The notes: a model not told the origin generated them from the letters alone. A stretch of 64,000 bases of DNA from Planctomycetota bacterium (GCA_018814045.1 JAHJAR010000277.1:1-64000); one strand, 5' to 3'. Numbered from the stretch's first letter, positions 6,359-15,695 are shown. Numbers and translations: made by a program.

Positions 6359-6715
6359 AGGTTATCGGAACGCTGTGGTCGCGGCGCCCGCTTGCCTGTC
6401 GGACTCACGCCACATGAGCGGGCGCGGCTTCTGTTGGGCTGCGGCTCGCCCACCCGCCGAGCGTCGCACGCCGGCGCACAGCGTTTTCGCAGCTTGCAGT
6501 TTACTGCAAATCCCGGACCGGGGCGGCATGCTCGGGGGCAGTGACAGACGGCAAACGGCCGCTCACCGGCGAGAGATGCGCTGCTGCCGGATTGTGTGAG
6601 CAGCCCGCGTGGGGCGGCGAGGGCGGGAAATAGCTTGTGAGGAATTCGCCGGTGCTCTAAACTTAAGAGGTTTATGTCTGTTTCGCATAGGTCCCAGACG
6701 GCCAGGAGGAACAAG
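6359..6715. other. Divergent intergenic region
   Basis: This 357-base gap separates the TMTC-like gene (minus) from the large dockerin protein (plus), so it must hold both promoters. No convincing -35/-10 pair was seen. The part nearest the plus-strand gene (6640-6700) is AT-richer. The ribosome site AGGAGGA at 6704-6710 belongs to the gene starting at 6716. Confidence 0.4.
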
Positions 6716-9700
6716 ATGGCACGAGCAATGCGAGTCTTTGCGGTGGGTGCCTTGTTGGCACTCACGAGCCCAGTGTGGGGGCAATACCCATCGGACTTGG
6801 TAGGCTTCAATGGCCCGCCGTTTGACGACATCAACGCTCATGAGATGTTCCGCATTCCCGAGTTCTCCGGCACGACCAACGGTTACATCCTGCTGAACGT
6901 AACCGGGCTGGAGAACAACAACGCCTATCGTGCCGCGGGTCTGCACACCGAGGGTGACGCGGGGCTGTATGCCTTCTACGACTGGCTGAACCCGGCTGAT
7001 CCCAGTGCCTGGATGCGTCTGACAACCTTCAACGGTGATGAGCGTCCGAATCCCGTGCTCGATTCGCGCGGCAAAGTGCGTTTCAAGCTGACCAACCAGG
7101 CCGAGCTGTTCACGGGTGAAATCGGGATCTGCCTGGGCATCCGCGAGACGGGTGGCCTGGGGATTCCGCAGCTTGGTGACGGCGGCACGACCGGCGTGAT
7201 CGAGTGGTTCGGCGTCGACACGACCGTAAACGCCATCACGGCCGGCGCGGACGGGATCGTCAACACGACTGCCACGGGCGACGACGTCCAGGAATACCCG
7301 GTCGGATACGATGTTATCCTCAACGGTCACCACCCGGACATCGCGGTAATCTCGCCCGGCACCAACGGCACCATCGACACTGCTGCGGTGCCGGATGACG
7401 AGGAGCGCTACGGCTTCTTCATCGGTGGCCCCGACGATAACGCGCGCATCCCGATTCCGGCCATCACGCTCCCGCCCAACCCCGACCCCTACGAGTTGGA
7501 ATGGGATTTCACCGCGGGCACGGTTTCGGTCGGCGGCACACCTGTTGCGTGTGGAACGGTTGGTTTCACAGGCAACGGTACGCTCGCGGACTGCCCGGAT
7601 TTCCGCGGCACACTGGAGCATATCGCGATCACGAACGTGGCGAGCGATCCCGCCGATGAGATGAAGTTCGGGATCGATGAACTCCAGTTCGAGGCCACGA
7701 TCCCCGATCCGACGCCGCCGCCGGTGATCCGCGCTCCGGTCGTGGACACCGACACCGAGGTCGAGGTGGAGTGCATCGACGAGGCGACCGAGGCTGAGTT
7801 GTTCATTGGCATCGACTCGGCGGGCGTCGTGACGCCGGTTGACGGCGTGGCCACCTTCAGCCCCCTGAGCCTCGAGGAAGGCGATGTCCTGACGGCGACG
7901 CAGACCGCAAACGGCGCTGTCAGTCCCCTCTCCAACCCGGTGGTGGTATATGCCGCGGGGACCGCACTGGCAGACAACTTCGATGGCTACGCTTCCCAGG
8001 ACGATCTCGAGATCTTCTGGACGCAGACCGATCCGGAAACCGATCGAAAGATTCTGCTGGCCACCGGCAGCGCTGCGAGTTGTGAGAACATGGTGGTCTC
8101 GGACTACGCGTCCGGCCCCCCGGTCTCGCGTTTGTACGTCTCGCTGGGCCAGGTGAACGGCGCCGTCGGCGACCCGCTGGTGGTGACGTACTACTTCAAG
8201 CACGATTCCAACAACACCAACGCCCGGGCGCGCTTCGAGCTGACTCCGTCGCTCAGTCGGGCTGAGGGTGCGGTCGGCTTTGCGTTCACGAATGGTCTGG
8301 CTGGCGACTACACGGCCCAATACACGACCTTCAACGTCAAGACGCTGGACCCGACCGACACGGATACGTTCAGCGGCCATGAGACCGACTACTTCGGCTA
8401 CGACTACAGCCTCACGAACATCGACCGCGTGCCGGGCGTGTGGCACAAGATGGAGATCGTGATCACGGACGTCGTCAACTTCTGGATCGACGACGTGTTT
8501 GCCAACGGGTCCTACTACCCCAGCGGCATCCCGCGCGCGAATCAGCTTCCGTTCCAGTATCTCATCATTGGCTTGGGGTACTCGAACAACGGCCCGGCCA
8601 TGATGTACGACAACGTTTCGGTCACGATGGATGGCACATCGCCGCCGTTCGACGACCCGAACCCGGTCGATTCGCCGACGATCGTTGGCCCATTGTTCCC
8701 GGCCGATACGCTTGTTGATCTGATCGACGTTGACCCCACGGCCACGGACGTCACGGTGTACGCCGACGGTTCGAACGTGGGTTCGGCCACCGGTCCGTTC
8801 CCGACCGGCGATGCCACGGTGACTGTCACCGCGCTGGATCTCGACGCCGTGGTGACGGCGACGCAGACGGTGTTGGTGGTTGAGAGCTGCTACTCGGCTC
8901 CGGTCGTGGTGGCGGTTCCGGCCCCGACTCTGGATGCGACGCTGGTACCCGGTCAGACCCTGGTGGACGTCAGCGACATCGAGGAGAACCACGCCGGCGC
9001 CGTCTCGGTTTACAAGGAACTGGGCCAGGGTGAGTACGAGTTGCTCGGCACGCTGGCGACGCCCATGACCGATCCGGCTACGGTGACGACCACGGCGCTG
9101 GTGAACGGCGACACGATCGTTGCCACGCAGACAATTGGTGGCGAGGAAGGCCCGTACTCGGCCGGTGTCGTGGTAGCCGTGCCGGCGCCGGTGGTTCAGG
9201 GTCCGCTCGACCTGGGCGATACGCTCGTGACCGTCACGAACGTCCATGAGCTGGCCGACCTGGTGACCGTCTACGTGAACAACGACACGTACACCGAGGT
9301 CCCGGGTGGTGCGGACACGGTGGAGGTGATCGTCCCGGCACTGCAAGCCGGTAGCGCGGTGAAGGCTACGCAGACGATCGACGGCATCGAGAGCCCTGAT
9401 TCCAACATCATCCTCGTTGCCAACTACATGACCATCAACGAGTTCAACTACGACGATCCGAGCACCGACGACTATGCGTTTGTTGAGCTGTACAACGCGG
9501 ACAGCGCGCCGCTCGACATCAGCGGCTTCGTCATCGACGTCGGTGACTACGTCAGCGTGTACTACCAGGTCACTATCCCGGCGAGTACCACGATTGCGGC
9601 GGGTGGTTACTGGACCGTTGGCATGACCGCCGTTGCCAATCTGCCCGGTGCCGTGGTCGATCTGATCGACGACAGTCTGCGGTTGGACGACGGGCACAAT

Positions 9701-10912
9701 TACCTGGCGCTGCGTAACGCCGAGGGCGTCCTGCTCGACGCCGTGGCCTGGGAGACCAACAAGGAAACCGGCTCTTCCGGTGGACCGACCGGACCGCTGG
9801 TCCCCGCCGAGATCTACACGCAGATCGGATTGGGGATCTGGGGTAACCACGTGAACGCCCAGAATCCGCTGACGTCGCAGTCGCGTTTCCTCGACGGTCT
9901 CGATACCGACGAGAACGGGCGTGATTGGGGCATCTACGGTGCCACACCGGGTACGAGTAACAACAAGACCGACCTGATGCCGTATGTCCAGGATGGTAGC
10001 GGGCTGAACCAGTTGGATCCCGTGCCGAACTGGGTCTTCAGCTACGTGGCGCTGACGGCGATCGATCCGACCGTCGTCGACGGCACCGGTTTCAACCCGT
10101 CGGCAATCCCGTACTCGCCCGATGGTGGCCTGGCCATGATCGCCTGGGACTACTCCGGTGGCGGTAACTGCACTTACATGGAGCAGTTGGCCAAGGAGGA
10201 CTTCACGCTGGAGACGTGGATCTACGTCCCGCCGGCGTTTACGCCCGACGGCTACGAGGAGACCAAGGTCGGCGTACGCGGCAGTGCCTGCGGCGTGCAC
10301 AACTTCGACTGGTACAGCGGCGCGACGGGCGTGTGCTGGATGCTCCAGCACGGGTCGACCTGGCAAACGCTGTACCTGCTGGACGAGAACAACGGTGACG
10401 ACGGCAACGAGGGTGACGCGGTTTGCGCCACGATCCTCGGATCGATCGACATCGGCGTCGAGCCGACCATGACCGGCTGGCAGCGCCTCTTGCTGGAGGT
10501 CAGTGGCGACCAGGTCCTGGGCATCTTCGGCGGGACCTACGGGTCGCGCACGGATGGCTTCGAGATCACCGGGACCCACGACAGCCCGGGTGTCGGCGGC
10601 GTGTACATCTCGTATCGCGAGGCGGTTTCGGTCAACACGACGGCCCGTCCGCCGACGCTGGACGCCTTCAGCCTGACGACACCGGCGACCTACGCCTGCG
10701 GTGACTGCAACTGCGACGAGGCGGTCAACGGTTTCGACATCGACTACTTCATCGATGCTTTGAACATGTCGCCCGAGCAGTGGGCGAACACTTATCCGGA
10801 TTGCGACCGGGTCACCGTGGCCGACACGAACGGTGATGCGGCGGTCAACGGGTTCGACATCGATGGCTTCATCCAGGTGTTGAACACGGGCACGTGCCCG
10901 CGCGACGAGTAA
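6716..10912 (+). CDS. Very large secreted protein: tandem repeats, LTD domain and dockerin-like tail
   Basis: 1398 residues. AGGAGGA at 6704-6710 points to ATG 6716, followed by a signal peptide ending 'TSPVWG|Q'. About residues 340-411 and then 650-900 carry four to five copies of a beta-sandwich-like repeat sharing 'P-x-V-x-x-P-L-x-x-G-D-x-L-V' and 'V-x-A-T-Q-T'. Between them, residues about 416-645 look like a concanavalin/LamG-type domain. Residues about 902-1090 form a lamin-tail domain ('MTINEFNYDDPSTDDYAFVE'). The C-terminus from about 1327 has two Ca-binding dockerin-like repeats, 'NCDEAVNGFDIDYF' and 'TNGDAAVNGFDIDGF'. Probably a cell-surface or matrix protein; partners unknown and no cohesin gene is in the window. 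Confidence 0.85.
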   Translation: MARAMRVFAVGALLALTSPVWGQYPSDLVGFNGPPFDDINAHEMFRIPEFSGTTNGYILLNVTGLENNNAYRAAGLHTEGDAGLYAFYDWLNPADPSAWMRLTTFNGDERPNPVLDSRGKVRFKLTNQAELFTGEIGICLGIRETGGLGIPQLGDGGTTGVIEWFGVDTTVNAITAGADGIVNTTATGDDVQEYPVGYDVILNGHHPDIAVISPGTNGTIDTAAVPDDEERYGFFIGGPDDNARIPIPAITLPPNPDPYELEWDFTAGTVSVGGTPVACGTVGFTGNGTLADCPDFRGTLEHIAITNVASDPADEMKFGIDELQFEATIPDPTPPPVIRAPVVDTDTEVEVECIDEATEAELFIGIDSAGVVTPVDGVATFSPLSLEEGDVLTATQTANGAVSPLSNPVVVYAAGTALADNFDGYASQDDLEIFWTQTDPETDRKILLATGSAASCENMVVSDYASGPPVSRLYVSLGQVNGAVGDPLVVTYYFKHDSNNTNARARFELTPSLSRAEGAVGFAFTNGLAGDYTAQYTTFNVKTLDPTDTDTFSGHETDYFGYDYSLTNIDRVPGVWHKMEIVITDVVNFWIDDVFANGSYYPSGIPRANQLPFQYLIIGLGYSNNGPAMMYDNVSVTMDGTSPPFDDPNPVDSPTIVGPLFPADTLVDLIDVDPTATDVTVYADGSNVGSATGPFPTGDATVTVTALDLDAVVTATQTVLVVESCYSAPVVVAVPAPTLDATLVPGQTLVDVSDIEENHAGAVSVYKELGQGEYELLGTLATPMTDPATVTTTALVNGDTIVATQTIGGEEGPYSAGVVVAVPAPVVQGPLDLGDTLVTVTNVHELADLVTVYVNNDTYTEVPGGADTVEVIVPALQAGSAVKATQTIDGIESPDSNIILVANYMTINEFNYDDPSTDDYAFVELYNADSAPLDISGFVIDVGDYVSVYYQVTIPASTTIAAGGYWTVGMTAVANLPGAVVDLIDDSLRLDDGHNYLALRNAEGVLLDAVAWETNKETGSSGGPTGPLVPAEIYTQIGLGIWGNHVNAQNPLTSQSRFLDGLDTDENGRDWGIYGATPGTSNNKTDLMPYVQDGSGLNQLDPVPNWVFSYVALTAIDPTVVDGTGFNPSAIPYSPDGGLAMIAWDYSGGGNCTYMEQLAKEDFTLETWIYVPPAFTPDGYEETKVGVRGSACGVHNFDWYSGATGVCWMLQHGSTWQTLYLLDENNGDDGNEGDAVCATILGSIDIGVEPTMTGWQRLLLEVSGDQVLGIFGGTYGSRTDGFEITGTHDSPGVGGVYISYREAVSVNTTARPPTLDAFSLTTPATYACGDCNCDEAVNGFDIDYFIDALNMSPEQWANTYPDCDRVTVADTNGDAAVNGFDIDGFIQVLNTGTCPRDE

Positions 10913-10940
10913 TCGCGGGCATTCAAGCAGGGCAACTTAC

Positions 10941-10975
10941 GACAGGCCGGCGGCTTCCGCCGGCCTGTCGCGTTT
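10941..10975 (+). terminator. Intrinsic terminator of the large dockerin gene
   Basis: A perfect 12-bp stem, GACAGGCCGGCG (10941-10952) with CGCCGGCCTGTC (10958-10969), loop GCTTC, followed by GCGTTTTA. It lies 28 bases after the stop of the upstream gene. Confidence 0.85.
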
Positions 10976-11154: not shown

Positions 11155-12408
11155 GTGCTGGGCAGGCTGACCCGCTACTTCCTCAACATCAACACCATCT
11201 GGGGGCTTATGATCCTGACGGCCTTCTTGCTGTGCGTGTTCCAGCACTACCTGCCGAGCACGACCGTCATACCGGCGGAGCGTTTCGCGGACGGAGAGAA
11301 CGTGCTCACGCTGCGCGTCGTCGGTCAGAACGATGGCCCCGAGGATTTTCAGTACACGCTGAACATGCAGGGCGGCGAGCTGCACATCGCCGCCGCCGAT
11401 CGAATCCAGAGCCCGGACCGGCCGTGGCTCATTTCGGCGGGCTGCTTGGGCGAGGCGTTCCTGCTGCGTTGGGATTACGCCGGCCACGGCCCGTATCAAA
11501 TCGCGCTGCGGCAGTATCAGCCCAGCAGCGCGGCTCTCCCGGCGGGCATTCTGGCTGAAGGCGAAAACGTCGTTCTGCTCCACACTCGCGACGGGCAAGG
11601 AAAGCCGCGGGTCACCAAGTACAAGCTGGTTGTGGAGGCGGGTGAGCCTGCGATTCCGCCCGAAGAACGGATCGTCCGCCGCGGCCGCCCCGGACTATTG
11701 TCGGTTAACCAAACCGAGGCGGGCTATCTCCTGGCGTGGAGCAGCGAAGTCACCGCCGCGGATAGACTGGCGGTTGACCGGATTGTCGCGCAGGGCGACC
11801 TGGTCACACTGCAATCACTGTCGGATGCGGCGATCGACTACGCGCAGAGCGGGTTCGAGATTGCCCTGGGCCTAGTGGCGACCATGGTGCTGTTCCTCGG
11901 CCTCATGAAGGTGGGGGAGGACGCCGGCATCGTGCAACTGGTGGCCAGGCTGTTCTATCCGATCATCCGCTTCCTTTTTCCCGATGTGCCGAAAGACCAC
12001 CCGGCCAACGGGGCGATCGTGATGAACTGGACGACCACGCTGTTGGGGCTCGGCAACGCCGCCACGCCGTTTGGGCTCAAGGCCATGCAGGAGCTGCAGA
12101 GCCTCAACCCGCACAAGGACGTTGCCAGCGATTCACAGGTGATGCTGCTGGGCTACAACACGGCCGGACTGGCCCTGATACCCACGACGCTCCTGGCGGT
12201 ACGCAAGGCGGCCGGGTGCAGCGATCCGTTTGAGATCATCGGAACCTGCGTGCTGGCTGGATTCGTGGCAACGGTTACGGCCATTGTGATGGTCAAGCTG
12301 CTGGGCAGGCTGCCCGTTTTTTCGGTGAGGGCCGCCGCGGCGGAAGCAGCCGGCGGGCAGGGGGCGGAGGCTGCCGCGCCGGATGGAGCGCCCGGGGAGG
12401 GCGAGTGA
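11155..12408 (+). CDS. spmA: SpmA-like nucleoside-recognition (Gate) membrane protein with long insert
   Basis: 417 residues from GTG 11155 (ribosome site GGGAG at 11143-11147). The C-terminal part, about residues 230-390, matches spore maturation protein A: 'FLGLMKVGEDAGIVQLVARL', 'LFPDVPKDHPANGAI', 'LGLGNAATPFGLKAMQELQ', then 'AGLALIPTTLLAVR'. Typical SpmA is about 200 residues; here about 190 soluble residues (about 36-225) sit between the first helix and this core. In Bacillus, SpmA and SpmB are needed for spore-core dehydration; their transported molecule is not established. The stop overlaps the spmB start by one base, and a D-Ala-D-Ala carboxypeptidase follows, which suggests a role in peptidoglycan or envelope maturation. 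Confidence 0.85.
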   Translation: MLGRLTRYFLNINTIWGLMILTAFLLCVFQHYLPSTTVIPAERFADGENVLTLRVVGQNDGPEDFQYTLNMQGGELHIAAADRIQSPDRPWLISAGCLGEAFLLRWDYAGHGPYQIALRQYQPSSAALPAGILAEGENVVLLHTRDGQGKPRVTKYKLVVEAGEPAIPPEERIVRRGRPGLLSVNQTEAGYLLAWSSEVTAADRLAVDRIVAQGDLVTLQSLSDAAIDYAQSGFEIALGLVATMVLFLGLMKVGEDAGIVQLVARLFYPIIRFLFPDVPKDHPANGAIVMNWTTTLLGLGNAATPFGLKAMQELQSLNPHKDVASDSQVMLLGYNTAGLALIPTTLLAVRKAAGCSDPFEIIGTCVLAGFVATVTAIVMVKLLGRLPVFSVRAAAAEAAGGQGAEAAAPDGAPGEGE

Positions 12409-12956
12409 TGCAGGATGTGCCGATCTTCAAGCTGATCGTCGACCAGATCTCGCTGCTCGCGATTCCGCTGATCTTCTTCCTGATCGTCGGTTACGGCATG
12501 ATCAGGCGGGTCAAGGTGTACGAATCCTTCGTCGAGGGTGGCAAGGAAGGGTTCGATATCTTCCTGAAAATCCTGCCGTACATCGTGGCGATCTTCGCGG
12601 CGATCGGGCTGTTTCGCGTATCGGGCGCGCTGGGCTTCGTTTCCGAACGCCTGGCGCCGCTGACGCTCATGGTCGGCATGCCGGCCGATGTGCTGCCGGT
12701 GGCTCTGATGAAGCCTCTGTCCGGATCGGGTTCGCTGGGGCTGGTGGCGCAGATTGTCCAGGCCGCGCCGGACTCGTTCAACGCCAAGGTGGCCTCCACG
12801 ATGTTCGGCAGCACGGACACGACGTTCTATATCATCGCGCTGTACTTCGGTTCGGTGGGTATTCGGAAGGTGCGCCACGCGATGGTGGTCGGGCTGATCG
12901 CGGACTTGGCCGGCATACTCACGGCGGTGTGGGTCTGCCGCGCGGTCTTTGGGTAA
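12408..12956 (+). CDS. spmB: SpmB-like nucleoside-recognition (Gate) membrane protein
   Basis: 182 residues, the normal SpmB length. Motifs include 'IPLIFFLIVGYGMIRRVKVYE', split here as membrane helix plus 'KVYESFVEGGKEGFD', then 'MKPLSGSGSLGL' and 'STMFGSTDTTFYIIALYFG', all characteristic of SpmB. About four membrane helices. ATG 12408 is chosen because GGGAGG at 12395-12400 is well placed; it shares one base with the spmA stop, a layout for coupled translation of partner proteins. GTG 12405 is an in-frame alternative. Acts with SpmA in the inner membrane. Confidence 0.9.
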   Translation: MQDVPIFKLIVDQISLLAIPLIFFLIVGYGMIRRVKVYESFVEGGKEGFDIFLKILPYIVAIFAAIGLFRVSGALGFVSERLAPLTLMVGMPADVLPVALMKPLSGSGSLGLVAQIVQAAPDSFNAKVASTMFGSTDTTFYIIALYFGSVGIRKVRHAMVVGLIADLAGILTAVWVCRAVFG

Positions 12957-12989
12957 GCATCATTCAAGCAGAGGGAGTTGCAGCATCCC

Positions 12990-14501
12990 ATGAATACGGG
13001 CATTCGACGCTGGCGCGGGTTGACGCTGGTTTTGGCGGCAATCGTCGCGGCCGGGTGTGCCGAGCCTCGAGCGCGGTTGACGCGTCAGCTCACCGCGCGG
13101 CTGGATGAGATCCTGGAGCGACTGGCTGATACGGGGGCGACGGTGACGGCACGCGTGGTTGAGCTTCCGGGGCGGCGCGAACTGTACGCGCGGGATAGCG
13201 ATGTGCCGTACACGCCGGCCAGCAACATGAAAATACCCGTCAGCGCCGCCGGTCTCGACATGTTCGGCCTCGAACACACCTTCAAGACCTACCTCGTGCT
13301 CGACGGCGATGATCTGTGGGTGCTGGGCACCGGTGATCCAGGTATCGGCGACCCGCGTTTGGCGCGGCGGTACGGCTCGAGCACAACGGGTGTGCTGGAT
13401 GAATGGGCGGATGCACTCGCGCGGCGCGGTATCAGCCGCATAGCCGGTGACCTGTGCTACGACGACCGGGCCTTGGACGACGAATGGGTGCGCGCGACGT
13501 GGGGCGAAGACACGCTGCATTGGTACGGAGCCCCCACAGCGGGTCTGAACTTCAACGACAACTGCGTGGATATCACGATCTACCCGACCGTCGCAGGGCA
13601 GCCGGTTCGCTACGAAGTGGTTCCGCCGGTGCAGAACATCACCGTGGTCAACGAGTGCGTCACGGGGGCCGAGCACGCGCCGACGATTGAGAAGCTGCCG
13701 GCTGGCGATATCTACAAGCTGGGCGGCACCTGCGCCGAGCAGGCTGCGCTGAAGAGCAAACCGGTTGGCAACCCCGGAGCCTTCTTCTGCGACGCGCTGC
13801 GCACGCATCTGGCGGCGCGCGGGATCGTGATCGAGGGGCAGACGCGGCGGGCCACGGAACCGCTGGATCGACTGCTTTCTTCCACGCCACACGAGATCAT
13901 CGTCGTGCACGTGACGAACATGCCCGACGTGCTCCGCCGGATTAACACCAACAGCCAGAACTTCTTCGCCGAGGCGTTGTGCAAGCTGACGGGGCAGGCC
14001 TACCGTGCACGGCAAGGCCATCACGTGCGCGGTTCGTGGGCCGACGGCAGCGCGGCGATTCACGCCTTTCTGCGCGAGGCTGGGATCGATGACCGCCAAT
14101 TCGTGCTGGCTGACGGCTCGGGTCTGAGCGACGACAACAAAGTGACCACCCGCATGCTGACCGATCTGTTCGCAGTCATGTTTGCGCGCCCGTACGGCGA
14201 AGCCTACCGTGACAGCCTGGCAAAGGGCGGAGTGAATGGCACGCTGGAGCAGCGTTTTGCCGGCCTGGAGGGGCGCGTCTTCGCCAAGACGGGTTACATC
14301 AGCGGCGTACGGGCGCTGAGCGGATACGTGCGGACCTACGAGGATGGCTGGTTGACGTTCTCGATCATCTACAACCACATCCCTGGAAGTGTGCAGCCCT
14401 ACGAGAGCTTGCAGGACGAGGCGGTGCGTCTGCTGGTGCACTGGCCGTACATGGAGTGTGCCGCGCTGGCGCAGCCGGCCGAGCCAGTTGCCGTAGAATA
14501 G
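12990..14501 (+). CDS. dacB: D-alanyl-D-alanine carboxypeptidase/endopeptidase, PBP4 family (S13), lipoprotein
   Basis: 503 residues, usual for S13 enzymes. All three penicillin-binding motifs are visible: S78-N-M-K81, S322-Q-N324 and K433-T-G435. The region between the first two motifs has the large S13 insert ('LDGDDLWVLGTGDPGIGDP' lies in it). The N-terminus ends in 'IVAAGC', so the enzyme is probably a lipoprotein facing the periplasm, trimming peptidoglycan stems and cross-links. ATG 12990 has GAGGGAG 12 bases upstream; TTG 12978 is in frame but abuts that site. It starts 33 bases after spmB and is likely co-transcribed. The stop codon lies at the edge of a dispersed repeat. Confidence 0.9.
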   Translation: MNTGIRRWRGLTLVLAAIVAAGCAEPRARLTRQLTARLDEILERLADTGATVTARVVELPGRRELYARDSDVPYTPASNMKIPVSAAGLDMFGLEHTFKTYLVLDGDDLWVLGTGDPGIGDPRLARRYGSSTTGVLDEWADALARRGISRIAGDLCYDDRALDDEWVRATWGEDTLHWYGAPTAGLNFNDNCVDITIYPTVAGQPVRYEVVPPVQNITVVNECVTGAEHAPTIEKLPAGDIYKLGGTCAEQAALKSKPVGNPGAFFCDALRTHLAARGIVIEGQTRRATEPLDRLLSSTPHEIIVVHVTNMPDVLRRINTNSQNFFAEALCKLTGQAYRARQGHHVRGSWADGSAAIHAFLREAGIDDRQFVLADGSGLSDDNKVTTRMLTDLFAVMFARPYGEAYRDSLAKGGVNGTLEQRFAGLEGRVFAKTGYISGVRALSGYVRTYEDGWLTFSIIYNHIPGSVQPYESLQDEAVRLLVHWPYMECAALAQPAEPVAVE

Positions 14502-14702: not shown

Positions 14703-15350
14703 CTACCTGCGGCGCAGGATCAACAGGCCACCCAGGCCCAGCAACGCCAACGCGCTCGGCTCAGGCAGGCAGATCGTGTCGAGGACGATCTGGTCGATGT
14801 ACATCTCCCAACCATAGCCCTCGGCCCAGAGGTCGATTTCCTCCCAATTCGGATTCGGCTTGATGGTCGCGTAGTAGCGCGTGTACCACCAGCCTCCGCC
14901 AAGGTCCTCTTCGATGTCGATGACGAAGTCGGACCCGCCGGGAGTGTCGTAGAACTCCGGTGCCGGGCGATCACCGTCAAAGCCGCTCGGGTCCGCCCAC
15001 CAGGTGATCTGAAGGTAGACCTCCTTCAGTGGCCGCGGCTCGGGATCGTTGTCGTTAATGATCTCGATGTAATCGTAGGGATCGATGTACCAGACGCCCT
15101 GACGACCTTCAAACGAGTCCATCCAGTAGTCGTAGTCGAGGGCGTACGGGATGTTGAGATAGCACTCGCCGAAGGGGTTGTACCCCTCCTCCGGCAAGAT
15201 GTACCCGGGATCCGGCGCATCCGTGTCAAACGACCAGTGTGAATACGTCGACGTCGGACCGTAACGGTCCCACGGCGGCTGATACAGATCGTCCGCCAGT
15301 GCTGGCGCGACGACCACAGCAATAGCCAGTGCAATGAAGACATGCCTCAT
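14703..15350 (-). CDS. PEP-CTERM exported protein
   Basis: 215 residues. AGGAGG at 15358-15363 fixes ATG 15350, followed by a signal peptide (MRHVFIALAIAVVVAPALA). The body is very rich in Asp, Tyr and Trp ('WDRYGPTSTYSHWSFDTD') with no recognised domain. The C-terminus, 'LPEPSALALLGLGGLLILRRR' in two parts (PEP motif, helix, Arg tail), is a PEP-CTERM signal for exosortase processing. Likely a surface or matrix protein. It lies 345 bases downstream of a minus-strand phosphatase-family gene and is probably transcribed on its own. Confidence 0.85.
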   Translation of the reverse strand: MRHVFIALAIAVVVAPALADDLYQPPWDRYGPTSTYSHWSFDTDAPDPGYILPEEGYNPFGECYLNIPYALDYDYWMDSFEGRQGVWYIDPYDYIEIINDNDPEPRPLKEVYLQITWWADPSGFDGDRPAPEFYDTPGGSDFVIDIEEDLGGGWWYTRYYATIKPNPNWEEIDLWAEGYGWEMYIDQIVLDTICLPEPSALALLGLGGLLILRRR

Positions 15351-15695
15351 CGTGGTACCTCCTCGCTGGTCCACGGACGGACCAGTCGGGCCGTCTCGCC
15401 AGTGTGAGCACACTCACCAGGGTGTGCCCCGGCGAGTCTTCTCCACCTCATGCGCACACGGGATGGCAACGAGTGGGTTTGCCGGTATTCGCGGGCAGAA
15501 CTTTGGCCCGCTCAAAGTACGGGCACGCACAGCACGGCCTGATGTGAAGTGCTACGACCCAGGCCTCCTCCTCTCGCAGACTCCGACACATCTCCCGCCC
15601 AACGTCTACCATCCTCCATCTCTGAATGTACTCGTCAGGAAACGGGGCAGTCAAGGCCTGGCGGCCCCTGCGCAGCCAGCAGGACACCACGGGGC
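15351..15695. other. Intergenic region upstream of the PEP-CTERM gene
   Basis: 345 bases between two minus-strand genes. It should hold the PEP-CTERM promoter, but no clear promoter pair was recognised. The first bases contain that gene's ribosome site; nothing else was seen. Confidence 0.4.

Follow-up and report, generated by a model that had tools for sequence, protein, structure and literature searches.

In Bacillus subtilis, spmA and spmB form one unit with dacB, whose product PBP5* is a D,D-carboxypeptidase of family S11. Both genes are regarded as part of the sporulation core shared by all spore-forming Bacilli and Clostridia, yet a 2012 survey gave neither activity nor structural data for them (PMC3533761), and the papers that we found in the open-licence literature supplied none either. 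Here, we analyzed a stretch of 64,000 nucleotides from a Planctomycetota bacterium (GCA_018814045.1, JAHJAR010000277.1:1-64000; hereafter the window), in which spmA and spmB are likewise joined to the gene for a predicted D,D-carboxypeptidase. The two arrangements differ in that dacB lies upstream of spmA and belongs to an endospore context, whereas in the window a probable lipoprotein of family S13 is encoded downstream, SpmA is of a long form, and the host is a planctomycete, a group that, to our knowledge, is not known to form endospores. A further described relative is yjiH-yjiG-iadA of Escherichia coli, in which SpmA-like and SpmB-like genes are likewise followed, 12 bases downstream, by a dipeptidase gene; YjiG aligns with SpmB of the window (E 7e-11) and YjiH weakly with its SpmA (E 0.004), but the partner is isoaspartyl dipeptidase (IadA) rather than an S13 enzyme. 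No published link of SpmAB to S13, S66 or M15 was found in the open-licence literature. We report that the linkage of SpmAB to peptidases acting on D-alanine (D-Ala) in peptidoglycan is well supported far beyond the endospore formers.

All three genes of the window lie on the plus strand. The long-form spmA (11155..12408, 417 amino acids) starts with GTG at 11155 and ends with a TGA stop at 12406–12408, spmB (12408..12956, 183 amino acids) starts with ATG at 12408, and the S13 gene (12990..14501, 503 amino acids) starts with ATG 33 bases past spmB. An earlier sequence-only reading had placed the genes at these positions, and gene calls together with Pfam and NCBIfam matches confirmed it, including the one-base overlap of spmA and spmB (TGATG) and the 33-base gap; the in-frame GTG at 12405 would give a four-base overlap instead. 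SpmA (E 4.7e-9, 37.1 bits) and SpmB (E 1.2e-10, 42.2 bits) both matched the Pfam Gate domain above its cut-off of 29.6 bits, SpmB also matched NCBIfam PRK10519 (E 1.2e-8) under the cut-off of that model, and the two proteins form an adjacent pair with the conserved core motif LGLGNAATPFGLKAM...ELQ. The only other Gate match in the genome was a 725-amino-acid frame on another contig, which is FeoB-like by its size and double domain. A strong terminator-like hairpin of 14 pairs, 12 of them G-C (10940..10970, plus strand), sets the tight spmA-spmB-S13 unit apart from the dockerin/LTD gene upstream, and a search for a sigma-70-type promoter before the unit gave no match, which carries little weight in a GC-rich planctomycete. 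The Bacillus-type dacB-spmAB layout was not found in the window, where S13 lies past spmB and the dockerin/LTD gene precedes spmA.

The S13 protein matched Peptidase_S13 (PF02113) with E 5e-66 and 223.7 bits, above the curated cut-off, and the PBP4 model TIGR00666 with 173.7 bits (cut-off 107.8). Its homology to the structures of DacC, R39 and PBP4 spans the full length (B. subtilis DacC, 1w5d, E 2.5e-51) and includes all motifs: SxxK (S78-K81), SxN (S322-Q-N324) and KTG (433–435) were invariant in a ten-sequence alignment, and Gly22-Cys23, at a lipoprotein-like position, was nearly invariant. Judged from its sequence, it is predicted to be a PBP4-type D,D-carboxypeptidase with intact catalytic motifs and is probably a lipoprotein.

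Within the order of the window genome, SpmA was found in 15 of 60 relatives. Nine of these carry the long SpmA (71–77% core identity), and S13 directly follows spmB in all nine, whereas the six with a short, distant SpmA have no S13 nearby (0/6, several kilobases read). Most genomes of the order have one S13 copy; all ten long-SpmA genomes have two, the second being the spmAB-linked copy, as do 6 of the 51 remaining genomes. The hypergeometric probability for this association is about 1e-7 by hand arithmetic and is descriptive only, given the relatedness of the genomes and the definition of the set. In the S13 tree, the linked copies of the order, including that of the window, group separately from the housekeeping copies, in a clade of their own. 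The arrangement is more than chance, since it recurs in 9/9 relatives with the same SpmA type. Nor is S13 found beside spmAB only in this genome: besides these relatives, it occurs there in Burkholderiaceae, Marinimicrobia and a further planctomycete (G291). In other genomes across the phylum Planctomycetota, SpmA was present in only 2 of 235.

We then ranked the Pfam families of genes next to spmAB, excluding the loci of Bacilli and Clostridia. Among 115 adjacent genes on the same strand, each separated by no more than 150 bases, the tally was 15 for Peptidase_S66, 9 for Peptidase_S13 and 4 for Peptidase_M15, the last level with UvrC domains; the best NCBIfam model for the M15 neighbors was D-alanyl-D-alanine dipeptidase, below the cut-off of that model. 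None of the three was among the 25 commonest families of 115 control genes at least four genes from spmAB, and the Amidase_2 matches in this control derive at least partly from the Massilia island described below. Our own hidden Markov models gave 105 of 1065 near genes and 10 of 832 far genes, but this count is biased because the families were chosen from the neighbors, and the Pfam tally therefore carries the weight. S66, M15 and S13 have three mutually unrelated folds, but all act on D-Ala-containing wall peptides. S11 and S13 are different families of one penicillin-recognising clan (MEROPS SE), so that the sequence-only reading, which had called the window enzyme unrelated and non-homologous to that of Bacillus, was too strong on this point; among the partners, it is S66 and M15 that are truly unrelated.

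A scan of named genomes yielded 80 spmAB loci, and the whole survey covered several hundred. Samples were drawn evenly from larger groups, each labelled by the group of the survey's named center genome, and the sampled loci were partly the top-scoring ones; most genomes were metagenome-assembled, with genes called by a simple composition-based caller. For many loci the flanking sequence covered was just 1.5 kb, which makes the wall-peptidase counts near spmAB lower bounds. SpmA was present in 28 of 79 genomes of the Massilia family (labelled Burkholderiaceae) and 48 of 274 of the class of Massilia, in 88 of 149 Marinimicrobia, 105 of 148 of the Tissierella class, 64 of 148 Bacteroidota and 28 of 240 Alphaproteobacteria. 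With linkage defined as a wall peptidase at most two genes from spmAB, S13 was linked in at least 14 of 28 loci of Burkholderiaceae, S66 in at least 6 of 29 of Clostridia, and some wall peptidase in at least 28 of 70 of Marinimicrobia (S66 19, S13 12, S12 5, M15 4, amidase-like 2). In Gammaproteobacteria, a divergent AmiA-like amidase (PF07313) lay upstream of spmA in at least 5 of 46 loci (L168, L172, L173, L179, L184). In the named-genome scan, fused spmAB of Massilia, Pseudoduganella and Duganella had S13 behind it, spmB of Tissierella and Clostridium was followed by S66, and in seven Paenibacillus loci S11 lay upstream of spmA; Marinimicrobia TCS56 has the order S13-S66-spmA-spmB.

Three Marinimicrobia loci (L390, L391, L396) share the larger cassette S13-S66-spmA-spmB-M15-S66; in L391, Pfam identifies the next gene past it as an amino acid permease, and L396 holds a similar-looking one. 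In Massilia and Pseudoduganella (L072, L075, L111), S66, a TonB receptor and a family-5 peptide-binding protein lie on one side, then comes spmAB-S13, and beyond it lie M15, a LysR regulator, a murein amidase and a GHL10 glycosidase, with domains confirmed by Pfam on one representative per gene; we regard these loci as a peptidoglycan-recycling island. Planctomycete G291 carries long spmA-spmB-S13-S13 followed by an opposite-strand S66 (L315, 6563-9519). The family-5 binding proteins include YepA and MppA of E. coli, and the LD-carboxypeptidase, amidase and family-5 binding protein of the linked loci are the same kinds of partner as those of AmpG, Opp-MppA and YejBEF-YepA with LdcA and AmpD, although these transporters belong to families unrelated to SpmAB, for which we infer a role in uptake. 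The ddp operon (DdpX with DdpABCDF) likewise places a VanX/DdpX-family dipeptidase beside transporter-like genes, as at the M15-linked spmAB loci, but uses an ATP-binding cassette (ABC) importer where the linked loci have SpmAB. In Agrobacterium, the ABC transporter YejBEF-YepA mediates peptidoglycan recycling (PMC9790009).

S13-linked loci occupied about six places on the SpmAB trees: the window clade, Oxalobacteraceae within the fused clade, three places in Marinimicrobia, and G291. Parsimony gave 8 changes for the linkage, with gain and loss indistinguishable and some intervening branches weakly supported. The linked S13 lineages differ, being the housekeeping PBP4 ortholog in Burkholderiaceae, several lines in Marinimicrobia and a separate paralog clade in the order of the window, and a single transferred spmAB-S13 cassette is not favored given these differences. 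The window clade and G291 may share a linked S13 ancestor; their SpmA proteins belong to different clades.

SpmA of the window consists of membrane helix 1 (amino acids 12–32), an inserted domain (35–217) and a helical Gate-domain core (219–404), which was well predicted in the structure model. The first copy of the inserted domain (11257..11511, plus strand; amino acids 35–119), a predicted beta-sandwich with a block-wise predicted local distance difference test (pLDDT) of about 62–84, is kept in all nine long relatives, and a diverged tandem copy (11512..11790, plus strand) was modelled with low confidence (to amino acid 217). The two copies share 33% identity (E 2e-11, single comparison), and the duplication (11257–11790) was found only in the window, the nine relatives having one copy. 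The inserted domain probably lies on the outer face, because the N-terminus (MLGRLTRYF) is positively charged. A second long type of SpmA occurs in Bacteroidota (L275-L288, L292-L294, L297, L301), Gammaproteobacteria (L327, L331, L334) and G291 (L315). In profile comparison, the extra domains of the two types aligned only around the first helix; their common ancestry was rejected on this basis, and two unrelated insertions after helix 1 are likely.

With SpmA of the window as the only query, a fold search yielded nothing below E 0.001, and no sequence match of SpmAB to any solved structure was found. The fused SpmAB of Duganella was modelled well (pLDDT 84, predicted template modelling score 0.79), and its best Foldseek matches were Pho90 and the DASS-family protein VcINDY, with CNT and the AbgT-family proteins MtrF and YdaH lower, all of which are elevator-type secondary transporters. 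Since the template modelling (TM) scores were about 0.4, this weak resemblance is a hint of transporter likeness and not proof.

The recurrence of spmAB beside D-Ala-releasing peptidases in bacteria not known as spore-formers suggests that SpmAB is probably a wall-fragment transporter and not a spore-only device. We assign a probability of roughly one half to the following reading: SpmAB acts as a secondary transporter that carries murein-derived peptides or D-Ala, its partner enzymes produce or consume this substrate, and the endospore role is one specialisation. More tentatively, SpmA-SpmB may constitute a widespread, unrecognised transporter class for such compounds, built from two Gate-domain halves and accompanied by D,D-, L,D- and dipeptidases; its involvement in endospore maturation in Bacilli and Clostridia would be a derived use. 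Under the transporter reading, spmA-spmB-S13 would be a dedicated cassette for peptidoglycan peptide turnover. The lipoprotein S13 would remove terminal D-Ala on the outer face, and may cut D,D cross-links as PBP4-type enzymes do, leaving short D-Ala-ended peptides and free D-Ala; SpmA and SpmB, each supplying half of the fold, would jointly form one elevator-type transporter that moves the product inward for recycling, most likely as short murein peptides or D-Ala. The inserted domain of long SpmA, probably on the same side as S13, may guide the substrate or dock the enzyme. Other lineages would combine the same transporter with S11 (Bacilli), S66 LD-carboxypeptidase, M15 D-Ala-D-Ala dipeptidase or an amidase. 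The linked S66 proteins mostly have no signal peptide and are thus probably cytoplasmic; with S13, S11 and S12 outside and most linked S66 inside, the simplest arrangement would place a membrane transporter in between, with outer trimming followed by transport and then by inner trimming and reuse. As for the cargo, the cytoplasmic S66 and the peptide-binding protein favor a peptide, whereas the common product favors D-Ala. The sequence-only reading had proposed a general role in peptidoglycan or envelope maturation, with SpmAB, for instance, moving a precursor or signal across the membrane. Its peptidoglycan link beyond endospore formers holds, and membrane transport is plausible from the fold of fused SpmAB, but LD-carboxypeptidase, D-Ala-D-Ala dipeptidase, amidase and peptide-binding protein as partners point to turnover and recycling more than to maturation or precursor export.

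Several observations weigh against the transporter reading. Wall peptidases were linked in 1 of 53 surveyed loci of Bacteroidota and 0 of 28 of Alphaproteobacteria; the linkage is lineage-dependent, and loci such as these imply that other substrates or partners exist. Non-wall partners do occur, namely D-2-hydroxyacid dehydrogenase, proline dehydrogenase with an OPT transporter, and IadA in E. coli. In the window itself, neither S66 nor M15 lies next to spmAB, and S66 sits elsewhere in the genome. The fold matches of fused SpmAB are weak (E 4e-4 to 2e-3, probability up to 1.00, large root-mean-square deviation). In addition, the spore dehydration defects of Bacillus spm mutants have no obvious explanation under this reading.

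It is unlikely, although worth weighing, that SpmAB is peptidoglycan-related as a membrane scaffold or regulator of the neighboring carboxypeptidase, for example via the inserted SpmA domain, and does not transport peptides. Such a role would fit a constant SpmAB with varying enzymes, a probable lipoprotein partner on probably the same side as the extra SpmA domain, and the recurrence of long SpmA forms with unrelated extra domains. However, a single outer-face docking site cannot serve all partners if those of family S66 are cytoplasmic, as is probable, and the predicted SpmAB fold resembles transporters.

Rather improbable, in our estimation, is a further possibility, in which SpmAB would serve to export D-Ala or a compound related to peptidoglycan, or to move an osmolyte or ion needed by wall enzymes. 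The Gate domain is shared with the ion transporter FeoB and the nucleoside transporters of the CNT family, MgtE lies upstream of spmAB in a few loci, and the core-hydration defect of Bacillus mutants suggests such a role, as loss of spmA and spmB leads to more spore core water (PMC13188902; PMC8745062). Nevertheless, the neighbors found above chance are peptidases for D-Ala-containing peptides and not ion or osmolyte genes.

We give still less credence to the explanation that spmAB and wall enzymes merely share regulation or a wall-gene region without joint function. Adjacency is no proof of shared function, and some partners, among them an amidase and the M15 of Massilia, lie on the other strand; yet the linkage is repeated, independent, mostly same-strand with short gaps, and spread across phyla and several enzyme families, and a second S13 copy occurs in the order mainly where long spmAB exists. 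Finally, although the window genome (G000, 365 contigs) has an estimated contamination of 7.35%, a pairing by accident of one genome or by assembly artefact was refuted by the same gene order in nine other genomes of the order, among which the genes and proteins of the spmAB contig nest.

The repeated linkage to D-Ala-peptide enzymes narrows the search for a SpmAB substrate to a small, testable set. If the transporter reading is true, many bacteria have a further wall-recycling route besides AmpG, Opp-MppA and YejBEF, and it would be worth asking whether the spore dehydration phenotype reflects a defect in wall-fragment transport.

Other genes were observed around spmAB. Within the window, 6674-10912 encodes a large secreted protein that matches the lamin-tail domain and, weakly, dockerin, and 14703-15413, on the opposite strand, a PEP-CTERM protein. 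In loci of Bacteroidota and Ignavibacteriae (L275, L278-L282, L285-L287, L293, L317, L046), a D-2-hydroxyacid dehydrogenase gene starts 2–7 bases after fused long SpmAB, with alanine dehydrogenase two genes further on in L317. Long spmA-spmB in L310, L311 and L313 (partly also L312 and L314) is followed by a secreted protein of about 440–450 amino acids without Pfam match, and past it by proline dehydrogenase and an OPT oligopeptide transporter. In Marinimicrobia L305-L307, a secreted protein of 630–670 amino acids follows spmAB; the two tested carry a Por secretion tail, with no other clear domain.

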